Source of the DNA: Chitinophaga vietnamensis
Lineage (GTDB): Bacteria > Bacteroidota > Bacteroidia > Chitinophagales > Chitinophagaceae
Length of the DNA stretch: 64,000 nucleotides
Assembly: GCF_902167635.1 (NCBI RefSeq)
Contig: NZ_CABHMS010000006.1
Span: 248,001 to 312,000 of the forward strand
Reading direction: 5' to 3'
Shown here: piece after piece, positions 14,285 to 60,486 of the stretch
How the letters are laid out: every line of letters begins with the position of its first letter
Position numbering within the stretch: position 1 is the stretch's first letter
The notes under the pieces: model-generated
The model's database searches: none
What the model saw: the letters and a program-made list of their open reading frames with translations, nothing else
Told to the model about the DNA's origin: nothing
Made by a program: the position numbers and the translations under genes

Positions 14285-14405
14285 GGATTTTCGAATTTAT
14301 TGATTTTCGGATTTATTGATTTAATTGGAGCGGAGATAACACATTGTTCATCTCCGCTCCAATTAAATCAATAAATCCGAAAATCAATAAATTCGAAAAT
14401 CCTTA
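14282..14405. repeat. Long palindrome 1, octamer family
   Basis: Two arms of about 55 bp with one mismatch (GGG/TCCTT edge) flank a 12-base loop. The outer part of the left arm is a chain of 8-bp words: ATTTTCGA, ATTTATTG, ATTTTCGG, ATTTATTG. The inner part (AATTGGAGCGGAGAT) does not follow the 8-bp rule and is unique to this copy. It begins at the stop codon of the binding protein and ends 10 bases before the LysR start, so an RNA copy would form a huge hairpin between the two genes. Confidence 0.92.
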
Positions 14406-27213: not shown

Positions 27214-28692
27214 ATGAATCAAAATATCCGGAGCTGGGCTTTCTGGCTGATGTTTATAACCGTAGTAGCTATTTCTTTTACACGTTGCGCCAATATAGTG
27301 CCGCCGGGCGGTGGCCCGCGGGATACGCTTCCGCCGGTGCTGTTGCAGGTAAACCCTCATGACTCCACCCTGCACTTCAAAGGCAACAAGGTTACCTTCA
27401 TTTTTGATGAATTTGTGGAGCTGGATAATGTGAACGATAAACTGATCGTATCACCCACACTCAAACGTGTGCCCTTGGTTACGGCCAAGCTGCATACCGT
27501 TACCCTGCAAATAAAAGATACGCTCAAACCCAATACCACCTACACTTTCAACTTCGCTGACGCTATCCGCGATATCAATGAGCGCAATATTGTGCAGGAT
27601 TTCCAGTATGTGATATCTACCGGCGATTACCTGGATAGTTTGCAAATCACCGGCCGCATCATCAACGCAGAAACAGGAAAGCTCGATAGCAACGTAGCCG
27701 TGATGCTCTACCGCGACCTTACCGACTCCGTAGTATCCAAGGAAAAACCTTTGTACTACGCCAAAAGTCGCGGTGATGGCACCTTCCGCTTTAAGAACAT
27801 CGCACCGGGCGAATACAAGATATTCGCTTTGAAAGAGGAAGACCGCGACCTGCAATATAACCAGCCTTCCGAGATGATCGCATTTGTAGACAAACCGATT
27901 GGATTGACCAACAAGAACGTAGCCGATGTGAACATGCTGCTGTTCATGGAAACAGACAGCACCGTCAAGAAGCCGGAAAAGCTCGACTCGCTTGAGTTAC
28001 AGCTGCAGCAGGAAGAGAAAGAAAGACAACGGGAGAAAGATAAAGACAAAAAGAAACCAAGGCTGACGGCCTCCCCCACCCTTGAAGGCGGCCAGCAGGA
28101 ATTGCCGCAGCCGTTGCGCGTGGCCTTCAACCTGCCGCTTAAAACGCTGGACAGCAGCCGCATCCAGCTGCTGGAAGACACCCTCCACACACCGGTTACC
28201 TTCGCCAGCAGCATGGACTCCACACGCATGAAGCTCACCATGGATTACCAGTGGAAAGAGAACATGCCGTACCGCCTCATCATCCCGAAAGACGCCGTAC
28301 AAGACACTTCCGGACAGACATTACTAAAGGCGGATACCGTCAACTTCAAGACCAAAAAGCTCAACGACTATTCCGCCTTTACCGCCTCATTGGAGCTGAG
28401 CGACAGCACCCGCAAGGCCATCGATGATACTACCATGCATTATGTGTTCCAACTGGTGCAGGACAAAGTGATCAAATATTCCGGCACAGTAGTGAATGGT
28501 AAATGGTCGCAAACGCTGATCACGCCTGGCGAATACGAGATCCGGGTATTGCTGGATAAAAACGGTAACGGCAAATGGGACCGTGGTAATTACTATACCC
28601 AACCCAAAAAGCAGCCGGAACAAGTGATCCTGCTGCCAGAAAAAGAAAACCTGAAGGCCGGTTGGACCGTCAGGAAACCGTTTAGGATTTGA
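27214..28692 (+). CDS. Ig-like-domain lipoprotein
   Basis: This 492-residue protein has a lipoprotein signal (VVAISFTRC, lipid Cys near 24) followed by the Pro/Gly-rich NIVPPGGGPRDTLPP common in this Bacteroidota family. The body has SbsA-type Ig-like domains (VTFIFDEFVELDNVNDKLIVSPTLKRVP, then RVAFNLPLKTLDSSRIQLLED) and a Glu/Lys/Arg/Asp-rich stretch near 265-285 (EEKERQREKDKDKKKP). It is probably anchored at the cell surface. Function is not known. The last codons and stop lie inside the first octamer word of palindrome 2. Confidence 0.8.
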   Translation: MNQNIRSWAFWLMFITVVAISFTRCANIVPPGGGPRDTLPPVLLQVNPHDSTLHFKGNKVTFIFDEFVELDNVNDKLIVSPTLKRVPLVTAKLHTVTLQIKDTLKPNTTYTFNFADAIRDINERNIVQDFQYVISTGDYLDSLQITGRIINAETGKLDSNVAVMLYRDLTDSVVSKEKPLYYAKSRGDGTFRFKNIAPGEYKIFALKEEDRDLQYNQPSEMIAFVDKPIGLTNKNVADVNMLLFMETDSTVKKPEKLDSLELQLQQEEKERQREKDKDKKKPRLTASPTLEGGQQELPQPLRVAFNLPLKTLDSSRIQLLEDTLHTPVTFASSMDSTRMKLTMDYQWKENMPYRLIIPKDAVQDTSGQTLLKADTVNFKTKKLNDYSAFTASLELSDSTRKAIDDTTMHYVFQLVQDKVIKYSGTVVNGKWSQTLITPGEYEIRVLLDKNGNGKWDRGNYYTQPKKQPEQVILLPEKENLKAGWTVRKPFRI

Positions 28693-28752
28693 GGATTTAT
28701 TGATTTTCGAATTTTCGGATTTAAATCAAAAAATCCGAAAATCAATAAATCT
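28687..28752. repeat. Long palindrome 2, octamer family
   Basis: The left arm is the words ATTTGAGG, ATTTATTG, ATTTTCGA and ATTTTCGG. The right arm is the reverse of ATTTATTG and ATTTTCGG, so the left arm has one extra 8-bp word. The TGA of ATTTGAGG is the stop codon of the upstream gene. Confidence 0.88.
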
Positions 28753-28753
28753 C

Positions 28754-28761
28754 TAACTTTG
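28754..28761 (+). promoter_or_regulatory. -7 box (TAACTTTG) immediately before recR
   Basis: TAACTTTG fits TAnnTTTG and ends only 4 bases before the recR ATG. A transcript from here would have almost no leader. It follows directly on the end of palindrome 2. Confidence 0.55.
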
Positions 28762-28765
28762 CATT

Positions 28766-29386
28766 ATGGTCTTCTCATCCGCATTGATAGAAAACGCAGT
28801 AAATGAATTTGCGAAGTTGCCGGGTATCGGTAAGAAAACTGCGCTGCGCCTGGTATTGCACCTGCTCAAACAAGACCTGAGCCAGGTGCAGCAGTTTGGC
28901 GATGCTATTTCCCGTATGCGGGAACAGATCCGGTTTTGCCAGATATGCCATAACGTATCAGATGAAGATACTTGTAGCATCTGCAACAGCCACTCCCGTC
29001 ATAAAAATGTAGTGTGTGTGGTAGAAAGCATCCGTGATGTGATGGCCATCGAAAACACGCAGCAGTATAATGGCTTGTATCATGTGCTGGGAGGCATCAT
29101 CTCCCCTATTGATGGCGTAGGTCCCGATCAGCTGAATATACATTCCCTCGTAGAGCGTGTACAGCAGCGGGGTGTAGAGGAAGTGATCATGGCTTTAAGC
29201 CCCACCATTGAAGGCGATACTACGATCTACTATCTCTCTAAAAAACTGAAAGATCTTCCGGTGAAGATCACCACCATTGCCCGTGGCATTGCTTTTGGCG
29301 GCGAACTCGAATATGCCGACGAGATGACGCTGGCTCGCTCCATCTCCAACCGGCTACCACTGGAAAGCTACGTTCAACAGAAATAA
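28766..29386 (+). CDS. recR: Recombination protein RecR
   Basis: This 206-residue protein loads or stabilises RecA in the RecFOR gap-repair pathway. It shows the helix-hairpin-helix (FAKLPGIGKKTALRLVLHLL), the zinc finger CQICHNVSDEDTCSIC, and the Toprim domain from VVCVVESIRDVMAIE to LARSISNRLPLESYVQ. The start at 28766 gives the usual family N-terminus. The stop codon overlaps the first word of palindrome 3. Confidence 0.95.
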   Translation: MVFSSALIENAVNEFAKLPGIGKKTALRLVLHLLKQDLSQVQQFGDAISRMREQIRFCQICHNVSDEDTCSICNSHSRHKNVVCVVESIRDVMAIENTQQYNGLYHVLGGIISPIDGVGPDQLNIHSLVERVQQRGVEEVIMALSPTIEGDTTIYYLSKKLKDLPVKITTIARGIAFGGELEYADEMTLARSISNRLPLESYVQQK

Positions 29387-29457
29387 TTTAGGGATTTAGG
29401 GATTTTTGAATTTTCGGATTTAAATCAAAAAATCCGAAAATCCCTAAATCCCAAAAT
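29386..29457. repeat. Long palindrome 3, octamer family
   Basis: Left-arm words are ATTTAGGG, ATTTAGGG, ATTTTTGA and ATTTTCGG; the right arm has the complement of ATTTAGGG, then a shortened copy lacking the ATTTTTGA word. It starts on the last base of the recR stop codon. Confidence 0.87.
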
Positions 29458-29461
29458 AAAT

Positions 29462-29489
29462 ACGGGTGCTCAATAGCACCCGTCTTCGT
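29462..29489 (+). terminator. Hairpin terminator after recR
   Basis: ACGGGTGCT and AGCACCCGT form a perfect 9-bp stem with a CAAT loop, then a T-rich run CTTCGTTT. It lies 4 bases after palindrome 3. Confidence 0.78.
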
Positions 29490-35998: not shown

Positions 35999-36004
35999 GC
36001 GGTA

Positions 36005-36120
36005 TGTGAGAATTTATTGATTTACGGATTTACGGATTTATGAATTTGAGGATTGACAAATAAATTCTCAAATCCGTAAATCCTCAAATTCATAAATCCG
36101 TAAATCAATAAATTCTCACA
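36005..36120. repeat. Long palindrome 4, octamer family
   Basis: Left-arm words are ATTTATTG, ATTTACGG, ATTTACGG, ATTTATGA, ATTTGAGG. The right-arm complement reads ATTTATTG, ATTTACGG, ATTTATGA, ATTTGAGG, ATTTACGG, ATTTGAGA. The left arm therefore has one extra ATTTACGG and the right has two extra words near the loop. It sits between the bTHX stop and the convergent pdxH stop. Confidence 0.92.
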
Positions 36121-36123
36121 TTT

Positions 36124-56387: not shown

Positions 56388-57275
56388 ATGATAAAGCAGA
56401 TCAGCCTGCTGGCGCTAATGGCCGGATGTACCCTTTCCGCCCTGGCCCAGCAAAGACCACTTTATGAAGCCCAGGACCTCACCGCCGAAAATATGTTCTC
56501 TGTAAATATTGAAGGCCCGAACTTCGACAAAGCCGGCAATTTCTATGTGGTGAACTTCCAGCACGACGGTACCGTTGGAAAGATCAATACCAAAACCGGC
56601 GCCGGCGAAATCTTCGTATCACTGCCCGATAGCAGCATCGGTAACAGCGTCAACTTCGACAGCAAAGGCGTGATGTACCTGCCCGATTTCAAAGGGCACA
56701 ATGTACTTACGGTAGATATGAAAACCCGCAAAGTGAGCGTGTACGTGCATTCCAGCAAATTTAACCAGCCGAATGACCTTTGCCTCAACAAAAAAGATCA
56801 GATCTTCGCCTCCGACCCCGACTGGAAAAACAGCAAGGGCCAGCTGTGGCGCATCGACCGTAACCGCAAGCCCGTACTGCTCGAAACCAATATGGGCACT
56901 ACCAACGGCATTGAACTCAGTCCTGATGAAAAAACATTGTACGTCAATGAAAGCATCCAGCGCAACATCTGGAAATACGACGTGGATAAAAACGGCAACA
57001 TCTCCCACAAAACCCTCTTCGCCAGCTTCCCCGATTTCGGCTTCGATGGCATGAAGTGCGACAAAGCCGGCAACCTCTATGTAGCCCGCTGGGGTAAAGG
57101 CGTGATCGCCGTGCTCTCACCCAAAGGAGAACTGATCCGCGAAGTGCCGCTCAAAGGGAAACAATGCAGCAACCTGATCTTCGGCGATAAAGACGGCAAA
57201 ACCGTTTATGTAACGCTGCAAGACAGAAAATGCGTAGAGACATTCAGAGTAGAGATACCAGGAAAGAAGTTTTGA
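56388..57275 (+). CDS. SMP-30/gluconolactonase-family beta-propeller, exported
   Basis: This 295-residue protein has a signal peptide (MIKQISLLALMAGCTLSALAQ) and six-bladed propeller pattern: FDKAGNFYVVNFQHDGTVGKIN, LCLNKKDQIFASDPDW, NGIELSPDEKTLYVNES and DKAGNLYVARWGKGVIAVLSPKG. The usual metal Glu/Asn/Asp set is plausible (NQPNDL, TNGIEL). It may hydrolyse a lactone released by the neighbouring sugar locus; this is inference. The start at 56388 is chosen for the signal peptide. Its stop codon overlaps palindrome 5. Confidence 0.88.
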   Translation: MIKQISLLALMAGCTLSALAQQRPLYEAQDLTAENMFSVNIEGPNFDKAGNFYVVNFQHDGTVGKINTKTGAGEIFVSLPDSSIGNSVNFDSKGVMYLPDFKGHNVLTVDMKTRKVSVYVHSSKFNQPNDLCLNKKDQIFASDPDWKNSKGQLWRIDRNRKPVLLETNMGTTNGIELSPDEKTLYVNESIQRNIWKYDVDKNGNISHKTLFASFPDFGFDGMKCDKAGNLYVARWGKGVIAVLSPKGELIREVPLKGKQCSNLIFGDKDGKTVYVTLQDRKCVETFRVEIPGKKF

Positions 57276-57366
57276 TTTAGGGATTTTTTGATTTACGGAT
57301 TTAGGGATTTGGGAGAAGTCTCAAATTCATAAATCCGTAAATCAAAAAATCCGTAAATCCATAAAT
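57275..57366. repeat. Long palindrome 5, octamer family
   Basis: Left words are ATTTAGGG, ATTTTTTG, ATTTACGG, ATTTAGGG, ATTTGGGA. The right-arm complement reads ATTTATGG, ATTTACGG, ATTTTTTG, ATTTACGG, ATTTATGA, ATTTGAGA. Words differ in the NNNN part but the 8-bp phase is kept. It lies between the convergent SMP-30 and glycosidase stops, and its first base is the last of the SMP-30 stop codon. Confidence 0.87.
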
Positions 57367-60359
57367 TATTTAATGATAAGTAGCCATCCTTTATTCTTCG
57401 CTACTGGTATGGCGGCGTCTTTGGCGAATACCTGCCCCTGTTGGAAATTACGTATATCCGGCGCCGTTATTACCGCTTTTGCCGGGTCAAGGCCGAGAGC
57501 TTTCCAGTCGATCGTGAGTTTGATAGTAGTATCTTCCTTTGCCCAGCTGGCAAGGGATACCAGCACCGCGCCATCTTTCTTGTAAATGGTAGCCGGTACC
57601 AGCGGGTTATCAGTTTTAACCGGATTGTTATCTACCCAATAACCGATCATCTGTGTACCTTTCATCCCGAAATCATCCCATACCTTCCAGATCGGCCGTG
57701 GATCGGAGTTTTCGGTCCAGGGCATACGGTTGGTCATGCCATATACCATACCTCTCCATTGATTGCCGCCGTCCTGCAACATCTCTCCCATTAAACCGAA
57801 CGGAATACCGCTTACTTCTGTCAGGAAGAAATCAGGATCGTTGTGTTCATAATCGAAGTATTCGCCGAACCAAAGCCGGTTGAGGTACGGGAAGTGCTCC
57901 ATATACAACATGGCGCTGTTGATGAAACCATCTGACTTATTATACTGGTTAGCCGAGTGCAGGTCAATGATGCCAGGGTGGCCGTTCTGCGTGAGCACAC
58001 GCTTGATGCGCTTCATGGTTACACGATCGAAAGCCACATCATCCAGGTAGATACCATCGATGCCTACATGCTGAACGAGCCAGTTCATGCCTTCCACATA
58101 ATAGTTATGCCAGCGGTTCATGCCACTGTTGATGATGGCAGCGTCTTTGTCTTCCGGCACAAACCAGGCAGCGATATAGTCTTTACCCACGTGCTCCTGC
58201 AACCAGGAGAAGCCGCCGCCTTTGCCGGGGCTGTACACTTCGTGGCCCAGACTGCGCAGCGGGAAGGTTTCCCAGGCGTGGTTGGAAAGCTCGCGTACTG
58301 TGTTGTATATCTTCACCTTCAGGCCTTTGCTATGGGCTTCATCAATGTAATCCTTCATCTTTTTCCATTCAATAAACGGATAATTGATCCAGGGATTGAT
58401 CTCGTTACCATGGTGGATATTCACAACAGTAGCGCCGGTAGCCTTGATAGAATCGAGGTTGTTATAGCGGTGATAGAAACGCGTAGCCCACTGGAAATCT
58501 GTATTGATCGGATGGAACGGTGTTACGAAGAGATGGAAATTATAATACAACACCTCTCCTTTGTGCATGGTACGTTCGCCGCTGTAGCTGTTGACCAGTA
58601 TGGACTTGCCTTTCAGGCCGATGCTGATGCCGCCTTTATCGCCATTACCCCAGGAAGTGGGCAACAGCAAAGGCTTTTGCAGGTAGAAGTTAGTGTTGAG
58701 CGGGCGCACATAATTTTCATCCCGGAGGGTGAATTGCAGGCCGGCGTTTACATCGCCTACCCAGGCGCCATCCTGGTTTTTATTTTTTACATCCCATTTC
58801 CAGTTGATCTGTTCGGGGCGGATGCCGCCCTTCTGGTTAAGGCCCATCATGTATTTGGCGGCGCCTTTATCCAGCGGGATGTGCATGGTCACATCTTTGA
58901 GGGCTACCTCTTCGAGGGCGGTCACTTTTACCGCGTACTCGATAGCGCCATCAAACTCTATGGCAGCGTTGATCTCCATTTGCAGACCAGGCGCGGTGTT
59001 CACCGCTTTCCAGGTGATCTTGCCGGCATCGCGGGAAGTCACCTGCCAGCCATTGCTTTGCCATTTGAGGTCTTTGCCGTCAGCGGCGGCGATGAAATGG
59101 AAATGTAGTGGTTCGGTGAGAATATTTTTAGGCTGGGTAGATAAAGACGTCATCTCTGGTGTGAAGAAGGTCTGTATCTGTGCCGGGAAGCCATCTTTGT
59201 TGATGCCTACTTTGCGGCCAAGGAGGCTGATCACAGTGTCTTTCAGCTCCAGTGGCGTGTATGGCGCGATCACGGCATTATCCTGTGCCAGTGTGGAGTT
59301 GAGCCATTTGAGGCGGGTCTGTTTCCAGGGCTCGTTGAAGCCGCTGTTCACTGCCAGTTTAGGCGTTACCGTTAGTGTCACCTTTACAGGGATGGTGGAC
59401 ATGCCATCTGCCCTTACGGTGGCGATACCGCTGTAAGTGCCTGCGGCAGCGTCTTTCGGCACATCGACACCACACCACATCGCCTGTACTTTTCCTGCTG
59501 GTACATTTACTACGCTGGTGAAAGGTCTGGCATCGTAAGTGGTGCCATTGGTATTGATGCAGCTTTGTTGTGTGGCCGCGATCACTTTGCCATCGGCGGT
59601 TTTCAGGTCAGAGAAGGAGATGCTGACATTGCTCAGAGGCTTGAGGGCATAGATACCCAGCTGGTAGGCATAGTATTCTCCTTTATCAGCCTGGCCTTTG
59701 AAAGATTGTGAAGGCCCTTGCTGCATCCAGCGTTGCGGCAGGTCTTCTGTCATTTTAATGGGGAACTCGCGGTTCTCGGGGAACACAAGATAGCCTGCCC
59801 CCGGGTGTTTCAGCAGCAGTTGTTTCATTTCGGCGGCGGTGGCAATTACTTCCATCGGATAGAAACTGTTGAAGTCATCTACCGCTTGCAATTCTTTTAC
59901 TGCTGCATTGGGCCGGATACCGGCCGGGATGGCCTGTAACCAGCTGTTGTCGGCCGTTTGCTCAGGCGTGAGGTATACGCCCCGGGGATAGTTGGAGCGG
60001 CCCTCATTCTTATAAGGGAGGTAGTAGATATAGTAATCGCCCCTGCCGGAAGCCGGTTCGAAGCAGATATCTCCTTTCTCACGGTCAAGCACCAACGTTT
60101 TTACGTTCGTGATCTTTTGTTTTGTTTTAGCATCCTGGATGATGATGCGTTTCTGCTCCGGATGTTCATCACGGCGGCGCCAGGGGATGATCACCCGGGC
60201 TACCTTACCGGCGCCGTTGAAAGCAACTACCGCGCGATGATTGCCGAGCGAATCGGCATCCCAGCTGCTATTGCCATTGGTATATTTCACCTGTTGGGCC
60301 GTGGTGGCGCTATACAGGCCCAACAACAATCCGGTTGCTATGAGTCCTCCTTTTATCAT
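57366..60359 (-). CDS. Putative glycoside hydrolase (DUF6067-type TIM-barrel protein)
   Basis: This 997-residue protein has a signal peptide (about 1-21, SATTAQQ), beta-sandwich-like domains in the N-terminal half (VMWCGVDVPKDAAAGTYSGIATV-type strands, near 290-340) and a TIM-barrel-like catalytic part from about 600 (WLVQHVGIDGIYLDDVAFDRVTMKRIKRVL, GIIDLHSANQY, FFLTEVSGIPFGLMGEMLQDGG). The IYLDD and LTEVSG motifs are likely near the active site. A small C-terminal beta domain follows. The family is an uncharacterised glycoside-hydrolase-like one. It follows the second SusD gene, so it probably degrades the glycan taken up by that pair. Confidence 0.85.
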   Translation of the reverse strand: MIKGGLIATGLLLGLYSATTAQQVKYTNGNSSWDADSLGNHRAVVAFNGAGKVARVIIPWRRRDEHPEQKRIIIQDAKTKQKITNVKTLVLDREKGDICFEPASGRGDYYIYYLPYKNEGRSNYPRGVYLTPEQTADNSWLQAIPAGIRPNAAVKELQAVDDFNSFYPMEVIATAAEMKQLLLKHPGAGYLVFPENREFPIKMTEDLPQRWMQQGPSQSFKGQADKGEYYAYQLGIYALKPLSNVSISFSDLKTADGKVIAATQQSCINTNGTTYDARPFTSVVNVPAGKVQAMWCGVDVPKDAAAGTYSGIATVRADGMSTIPVKVTLTVTPKLAVNSGFNEPWKQTRLKWLNSTLAQDNAVIAPYTPLELKDTVISLLGRKVGINKDGFPAQIQTFFTPEMTSLSTQPKNILTEPLHFHFIAAADGKDLKWQSNGWQVTSRDAGKITWKAVNTAPGLQMEINAAIEFDGAIEYAVKVTALEEVALKDVTMHIPLDKGAAKYMMGLNQKGGIRPEQINWKWDVKNKNQDGAWVGDVNAGLQFTLRDENYVRPLNTNFYLQKPLLLPTSWGNGDKGGISIGLKGKSILVNSYSGERTMHKGEVLYYNFHLFVTPFHPINTDFQWATRFYHRYNNLDSIKATGATVVNIHHGNEINPWINYPFIEWKKMKDYIDEAHSKGLKVKIYNTVRELSNHAWETFPLRSLGHEVYSPGKGGGFSWLQEHVGKDYIAAWFVPEDKDAAIINSGMNRWHNYYVEGMNWLVQHVGIDGIYLDDVAFDRVTMKRIKRVLTQNGHPGIIDLHSANQYNKSDGFINSAMLYMEHFPYLNRLWFGEYFDYEHNDPDFFLTEVSGIPFGLMGEMLQDGGNQWRGMVYGMTNRMPWTENSDPRPIWKVWDDFGMKGTQMIGYWVDNNPVKTDNPLVPATIYKKDGAVLVSLASWAKEDTTIKLTIDWKALGLDPAKAVITAPDIRNFQQGQVFAKDAAIPVAKNKGWLLIIK

Positions 60360-60374
60360 TTGGTATAAGTTTGT

Positions 60375-60486
60375 GGAATATTTGAGGATTTATTGATTTA
60401 CGGATTTATGAATTTATGAATTTATAGCTGCTTTCAGATTCTCCACAAATTTATAAATCCGTAAATCAATAAATCCTCAAATATCC
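60375..60486. repeat. Long palindrome 6, octamer family
   Basis: Left words are ATTTGAGG, ATTTATTG, ATTTACGG, ATTTATGA, ATTTATGA, ATTTATAG. The right-arm complement reads ATTTGAGG, ATTTATTG, ATTTACGG, ATTTATAA, ATTTGTGG. The left arm has a duplicated ATTTATGA next to the loop. It lies between the glycosidase start and the SusD stop and touches the SusD stop codon. Confidence 0.9.

Follow-up and report, generated by a model that had tools for sequence, protein, structure and literature searches.

Palindromes of phased 8-bp words in the window

The window, a stretch of 64,000 nucleotides (C6:248001-312000 of the 6.31-Mb genome, 15 contigs, designated G000), contains six palindromes among genes that include recR, pdxH and SusD-type and GH123-type genes. 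An earlier note on this DNA had described the six as chains of 8-bp words beginning with ATTT, and all are present: each left arm is an exact match to chained ATTTNNNN in phase 8, with five to six words per run, and each right arm reads NNNNAAAT. The features are as follows.

14285..14402, no strand: 118-bp palindrome with arms of 53 bp, words TCGA-ATTG-TCGG-ATTG plus a GC-rich core
14323..14364, no strand: inner core hairpin AATTGGAGCGGAGAT..ATCTCCGCTCCAATT, inside the 14285-14402 copy
28687..28754, no strand: ATTTNNNN palindrome immediately 5' of recR, at the stop of an ORF that ends at 28692
29386..29461, no strand: ATTTNNNN palindrome at the stop codon of recR
29462..29483, plus strand: conserved GC-rich hairpin ACGGGTGCTCAATAGCACCCGT adjoining the recR palindrome, a comparison feature outside the element
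36004..36121, no strand: the palindrome originally flagged, in the convergent gap between pdxH and a small basic-protein gene that we presume to be bTHX-like
57274..57370, no strand: ATTTNNNN palindrome in the gap where an SMP-30/gluconolactonase-type gene and a GH123-type gene converge
60375..60486, no strand: ATTTNNNN palindrome between SusD-type and GH123-type genes

The exact phase claimed for the left arms holds, but at 36004..36121 the two arms are unequal by whole words, the left reading ATTG-ACGG-ACGG-ATGA-GAGG and the right ATTG-ACGG-ATGA-GAGG-ACGG-GAGA. This palindrome had been taken for the longest; the one at 14285..14402 is also 118 bp, and copies exceeding 200 bp exist in the genome. 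Cores akin to 14323..14364 (GCGGAGATC / GCGAAGATC type, judged by eye) are also found alongside different word families and outside this species. The hairpin called at 60378-60484 lies 1 bp from the stop of the SusD-type gene. The ACGGGTGCTCAATAGCACCCGT hairpin was nearly unchanged in the 28 relatives shown, with or without a word palindrome alongside. RNA-fold z-scores of the six palindromes ranged from -5 to -21, and the window gave no match at or above the gathering cut-off to any of 4227 Rfam models. The sequence TAACTTTGCATT, at 28754-28765 immediately before the recR start, has a similar form in many of the species read. As we take it to resemble the Bacteroidota -7 promoter box, the 28687..28754 palindrome adjoins a probable promoter.

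Abundance of the words in the genome and beyond

Five in-phase ATTT words gave 286+330 matches in the genome, against 42+59 for the reversed pattern, and the stricter RATTTNNK x4 gave 300+326 against 1+1, overlapping matches being counted. On C1 (1.10 Mb), 104 of 126 runs of at least three words had an opposite-strand run within 120 bp, so the words are not equally common outside palindromes; only one of the 126 lay inside an ORF of at least 100 aa. We then collected hairpins with a simple finder (arms of at least 20 bp) from C1, part of C6 and 20 fetched loci (~1.4 Mb), a non-random sample as the fetched loci were picked for holding copies. Among 168 hairpins, 79 carried ATTTNNNN runs (46 on C1, 9 on C6 and 24 in the fetched loci). 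Extrapolating the C1 density gives about 260 such hairpins per genome. The polarity is constant: 75 of the 79 hairpins have the ATTT run in the 5' arm, and none has an AAAT run there.

These figures bear on the idea that the words are plain degenerate tandem repeats generated by A/T bias and paired by chance. Expansion of words in a single arm does occur, for example at C1:109702, and would suit such an origin. Against it stand the 626 matches versus 2 for the reversed pattern, the pairing of most runs, the fixed polarity and a window G+C of 49%, and we give this explanation almost no credence. The reversed-pattern controls likewise rule out plain A/T bias or a microsatellite, the latter as the earlier note had maintained.

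At C1:109702-109820 itself, the left arm consists of ATTTNNNN words and the right arm of repeated TCACATTC-type words; one arm has apparently expanded alone. An autonomous element with two far-apart arms was also considered and rejected, because only 3 of the 22 unpaired C1 runs (245366, 303472 and 303920) had an opposite run 120-5000 bp away. Two of these, 303472 and 303920, are the arms of one split palindrome with REP copies in between; in this palindrome (G000:C1:303472-303959) the ATTTNNNN arms stand about 425 bp apart and GCCCC..GGGGC REP copies adjoin both. Uptake signals serving as the words, in the manner of the Neisseria terminators of PMC1852404, were set aside because the runs are nearly confined to palindromes and their vocabulary is degenerate.

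In a family-level sample, RATTTNNK x4 was present in 16 of 244 genomes, by far the most matches being in G000. Within the genus, searched as 79 Chitinophaga genomes including G000, GATTTNNG chains occurred in nine. An exact word chain was also matched in Chitinophaga qingshengii JCM 30026, where a ATTTNNNN palindrome begins 7 bases past the stop codon of an ORF. A phylum search with a D arm (the D type is described below) hit 3 of 296 genomes with one match in G000, a result uninformative on spread as the query was badly specified.

A dispersed 118-bp family and nested palindromes

The copy at 14285..14402 was found in at least 39 distinct places in the genome, itself included, with at least 87 of its 118 bases aligned; this is a lower bound, as 40 of 163 first-look candidates were scored. 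The other copies were 79-99% identical to it on the best strand. Among 30 copies shown with their flanks, eight are enclosed by a second palindrome, half of it on either side (..GGATTACCA or GGATTAGCA, unit, mirror), and one further copy has such a half on its left only. Six composites with the GGATTACCA tag were recovered by the finder, with arms of 58-106 bp and 0-2 mismatches. The longest spans 222 bp in total (arms 106 bp, 0 mismatches, loop 10), and other long arms measured 100 bp (0 mismatches, loop 9) and 97 bp (0 mismatches, loop 78). On sequence evidence, whole units recur at many sites in the genome, some of them concentrically inside another palindrome.

Palindromes of the D type (..CTCAGGATT..GGATTACCAGGATT..) were observed at C1:477104-477375, 1069734-1069903 and 1088848-1089071, L167:3948-4169 and L169:3954-4162; their arms measure 81-106 bp and contain at most one mismatch. 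The copies at C7:12456-12555 and C7:112262-112361, about 100 kb from each other, belong to an inverted segmental duplication, their flanks being identical and lying on opposite strands. Contigs end inside copies of the 118-bp element at G000:C2:1-88 and C4:719061-719153; assemblies thus break there, and copy counts are lower bounds.

Location at gene 3' ends and turnover between species

With genes called by a longest-ORF rule rather than from annotation, 73 of the 79 hairpins overlapped a stop codon or lay within 24 bp of one (42/46 on C1, 9/9 on C6, 22/24 in the fetched loci). Of the other six, three were 53, 217 and 383 bp from a stop and three had no stop on either side. In co-directional gaps on C1 and C6, 27 of 28 hairpins had the stop nearer than the following start (p 2e-7). 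Divergent gaps held only 2 of the 46 C1 hairpins, although they make up 26.7 of the 98.4 kb of gap sequence.

The same gene ends were then compared among species. The nearest of the 79 genus genomes has 74% identity to G000 over the recR region. Downstream of recR, a word palindrome was read in 13 of 29 genomes (G000 included), belonging to four families: ATTTNNNN, [TC]ATTTNNN, AATTACG (7 bp) and TTAGCTT (7 bp). The remaining 16 had none, a remnant or another hairpin. In the pdxH gap, the 15 genomes shown of 21 queried carried chains of ATTTNNNN, ATTTAGNN, AAAGCNN or TTAGCNN, with plain hairpins in G003 and G020 and some weak cases. The 7-bp families AATTACG, TTAGCNN and AAAGCNN were seen in G000 or its relatives.

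Four species closer to one another, G031, G013 and G078 among them, whose recR DNA is 90-95% identical (closest pair 92.4% over 194 kb), were compared over 200-kb syntenic stretches at 22 loci, one of them unreadable. The word family, called by hand, varied at 11 of the 21 readable loci. At several loci other species carry plain GC-rich hairpins, and some word palindromes are built around such a hairpin, as at locus 17582. The arms at locus 41415 are near-identical in all four species and the spacers differ. A second pair, G061 and G018 (94%), displayed similar changes. These comparisons show that a given gene end frequently holds, in related species, a different word family, a plain hairpin or no element at all.

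Mirrored changes and transfer between arms

We aligned copies of the 118-bp family on 53 paired positions. In 28 of the 30 copies (27 distinct), omitting only a copy at a stretch boundary and one at a contig end, 96.9% of 1393 cells were paired. Cells changed on both sides numbered 75, against 23.5±3.4 in shuffles (0/500) and 1-9 in slid structures; as the copies are kin to each other, these cells are not independent. A first alignment of 23 copies had given 97.3% of 1215 cells paired and 63 both-side changes against 18.1±3.0 in shuffles; it left out seven copies, namely the boundary-cut one, the contig-end one, one in which a single arm had gained a word and a further four, mostly short matches. 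A separate script on 25 copies counted 69 both-side changes and 64 mismatched cells among 1319. Pairs within ATTT were broken in 1 of 524 cells while the word tails varied, a constancy that may reflect selection or word-wide sharing. Many double changes in the tails are A-T/T-A swaps, which need no G-U intermediate step.

Orthologous sites gave direct comparisons. Locus 51543 shows a spacer inversion: what lies left of the core in G031 matches the reverse complement of what lies right of it in G013, and vice versa, with 1-2 mismatches in 30 bases, and the outer GCAAAG arms are unchanged. G031 and G078 have opposite spacer orientations at locus 199275 (identity 0.89 inverted, 0.76 direct). An inversion scan had flagged 199275 together with weak cases at 14312, 33498 and 39377 that we judged to be noise; 51543 was seen by eye and then checked, the scan having passed it over. 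Palindromes with a further word family around GCAAAG were observed at locus 51543 in G031 and G013 and in G000 at C1:76797 and 219547.

At the pdxH locus, both arms of G031 carry the 7-bp ATTTACG, where both arms carry ATTTACGG in G013, G019 and G078 and ATTTACGA in G041. A 7-bp word in both arms, set against an 8-bp word elsewhere, implies a mirrored 1-bp deletion. The word ATTTTCTG is present in both arms of G031 and G041, whereas G013, G019 and G078 have it on the right side alone; we rejected this as a case of arm-to-arm transfer because the presence of the word in both arms of G041 makes transfer indistinguishable from loss.

In yeast, inverted repeats undergo template switching that makes their arms uniform and flips their spacers (PMC8604942). 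Spacer inversion and arm homogenisation were both found here at orthologous sites, as a few events among the 22 loci in four species. To judge from the inverted spacers and the 1-bp deletion in both arms, sequence appears to pass between the arms, and the mirror symmetry is best explained by arm-to-arm copying. Some orthologous arms drift one-sidedly by whole words, and in some copies one arm is longer by a word, indicating that correction between arms is not constant.

A possible role of the hairpins in RNA

The earlier note had suggested a structured RNA end. Hairpins abutting stop codons agree with this; a U-tract is missing and the RNA-strand signature of the ATTTNNNN class taken alone is weak. 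In the 10 nt after 40 co-directional ATTTNNNN hairpins the T fraction was 0.32, against 0.31 in gaps, and TTTT stood just 3' of the hairpin in 6 of the 40. Canonical intrinsic terminators were therefore rejected, although plain hairpins stand at orthologous spots. We also considered that selection on RNA should leave more G-U than A-C mismatches on the transcribed strand. Counted over every class of co-directional hairpin in G000 and six relatives, G-T mismatches numbered 93 and A-C mismatches 52 (p 0.0008), whereas in convergent hairpins, the control, they numbered 42 and 34 (p 0.42). The ATTTNNNN class alone gave 41 and 25 (p 0.064); a first count of that class in G000 only had given 30 and 19. 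The surplus of G-T over A-C is suggestive of a degree of RNA selection, and such selection can likewise produce covariation. A strand-biased or transcription-linked C-to-T change could be an alternative source of the bias.

These results raise the possibility that the units are functional 3'-end RNA hairpins, terminator-like or acting as exonuclease barriers, in which folding produces the covariation between arms and the words are a by-product of slippage. The location at stop codons, the very stable folds, the plain GC-rich hairpins that replace word palindromes at orthologous spots, the arms of locus 41415 conserved around diverged spacers (by eye) and the co-directional mismatch bias with its convergent control all speak for it. 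It is weakened by a T content after the hairpin near background, by the marginal value for the ATTTNNNN class and by the C-to-T change that could mimic the bias. RNA selection itself does not explain the spacer inversions or the 97-99% identical copies at other genes. While an RNA role for the hairpins is possible, we consider this explanation of the family unlikely, if with a real chance of being right.

Long arms and SbcCD

In bacterial chromosomes, long perfect palindromes tend to be unstable, as in E. coli, where the hairpin nuclease SbcCD cuts them. The SbcD profiles TIGR00619 and PF12320 scored over the cut-off in 24 and 23 of the 79 Chitinophaga genomes, respectively, and in neither case in G000. 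The profiles detected SbcD in none of the nine genomes with GATTTNNG chains (0/9 versus 24/70, p 0.051). At the pdxH 3' end, arms of at least 30 bp were present in 0 of 20 SbcD-positive and 15 of 35 SbcD-negative genomes, 21 of these 35 being G000 or genomes selected because of close kinship to it or because of the words they carry. Among the SbcD-negative genomes not so chosen, long arms occurred in 1 of 14, and absence of SbcD is thus insufficient for them. SbcD-positive genomes do have short word palindromes at pdxH (e.g. GGAATTAGGAATTA), with a best arm of 25 bp. The link between SbcD absence and long arms is suggestive only, clade being a confounder.

Transposases and mobility

A RAYT-like transposase had been proposed as a possible agent of spread. 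A single Y1 transposase gene of RAYT type was found, at C4:222211 (L183, ~222211-222555), with tandem CGCCCC..GGGGCG REP arrays containing ATATTGGTAGC on both sides. This has the appearance of an ordinary RAYT-REP locus with no relation to the ATTTNNNN family, and the 3345-base locus holds no run of three in-phase ATTT words. RAYT-driven spread was accordingly rejected, as the sole RAYT found belongs to another REP family. The Y1 transposase search and the sites compared revealed neither another mobilising gene nor a clean empty site for the palindromes. An insertion-like case at locus 29662 had no clear target duplication, and by eye none was noticed in that locus or the 30 flanked copies.

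Non-autonomous elements of MITE or REPIN type, moved by an unrecognised transposase, would account for near-identical dispersed copies with common ends, and the concentric nesting resembles insertion into a hairpin loop. The ends vary, however, no target duplication was noticed, and the only transposase found in a search limited to Y1 has its own REP family on its flanks. We regard movement of this kind as rather unlikely.

A proposed origin of the palindromes

Our preferred reading, to which we assign a probability of roughly one half, is that these sequences are a dispersed modular palindromic repeat at gene 3' ends, REPIN/ERIC-like and possibly transposase-free, kept symmetric by template switching. 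Each unit is a hairpin with arms of chained 8-bp words, in many cases around a short GC-rich core. Words probably multiply by tandem slippage within an arm. Template switching during replication would then copy one arm onto the other, by which word changes become mirror images. The lack of a detectable SbcCD, judged from the SbcD profiles, may let arms grow to 100 bp. Next to stop codons the units would be tolerated, and they may be mildly useful as 3' RNA hairpins. The suggestion of a growing repeat of an unknown element, made from the window alone, fits a dispersed multicopy family with word-level differences among copies and species.

A broader and quite doubtful extension is that the SbcCD-less lineage hosts transposase-free palindromic replicators, in which growth by slippage, arm copying, concentric recombination and spread from one gene end to another by template switching between loci would produce species-specific vocabularies at shared sites. 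Many long palindromes together with no detectable SbcD offer a natural experiment on palindrome stability. As the words record slippage and arm copying letter by letter, rates of template switching should be readable from sister strains. The rapid replacement of hairpins at a fixed gene end also informs the evolution of 3' ends.

Comparison with known systems

A PubMed Central search, mostly at the level of titles and abstracts, returned no prior description of palindromes built from words. ERIC, BOX and NEMIS are modular hairpins of about 120 bp in gene gaps, with insertions inside the unit. The palindromes described here are similar in being ~120-bp modular hairpins in gene gaps, and differ in their word periodicity, concentric nesting and evidence for arm copying. 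Cyanobacterial STRR sequences are short intergenic tandem words, mainly direct repeats. The heptamer tandem repeats, e.g. TAACTGA in Beggiatoaceae (PMC4679880), share the short intergenic words; they are mainly direct repeats, whereas the arms here are mirrored.

Like the REP and REPIN sequences of PMC3116915 and PMC3733652, the palindromes are dispersed, extragenic, present in many copies and symmetric with a spacer. Compared with those REPIN-RAYT systems, they have no RAYT link that we found, arms of 8-bp words reaching 106 bp and a vocabulary that shifts between species. The GTAG/CGTC tag of REP and REPIN was not noticed by eye at the ends of the flanked copies. Intrinsic terminators, including those made of inverted uptake signals (PMC1852404), also place a hairpin right after the stop, use inverted word-like units and have plain hairpins as orthologous counterparts; the present palindromes differ from them in having no U-tract and in words that are degenerate, 7-8 bp long and nearly confined to palindromes. 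Quasipalindrome template switching, described for short inverted repeats (PMC8604942, PMC7202029), shows the same homogenised arms and inverted spacers; here, the arms extend to 100 bp and belong to a dispersed family.
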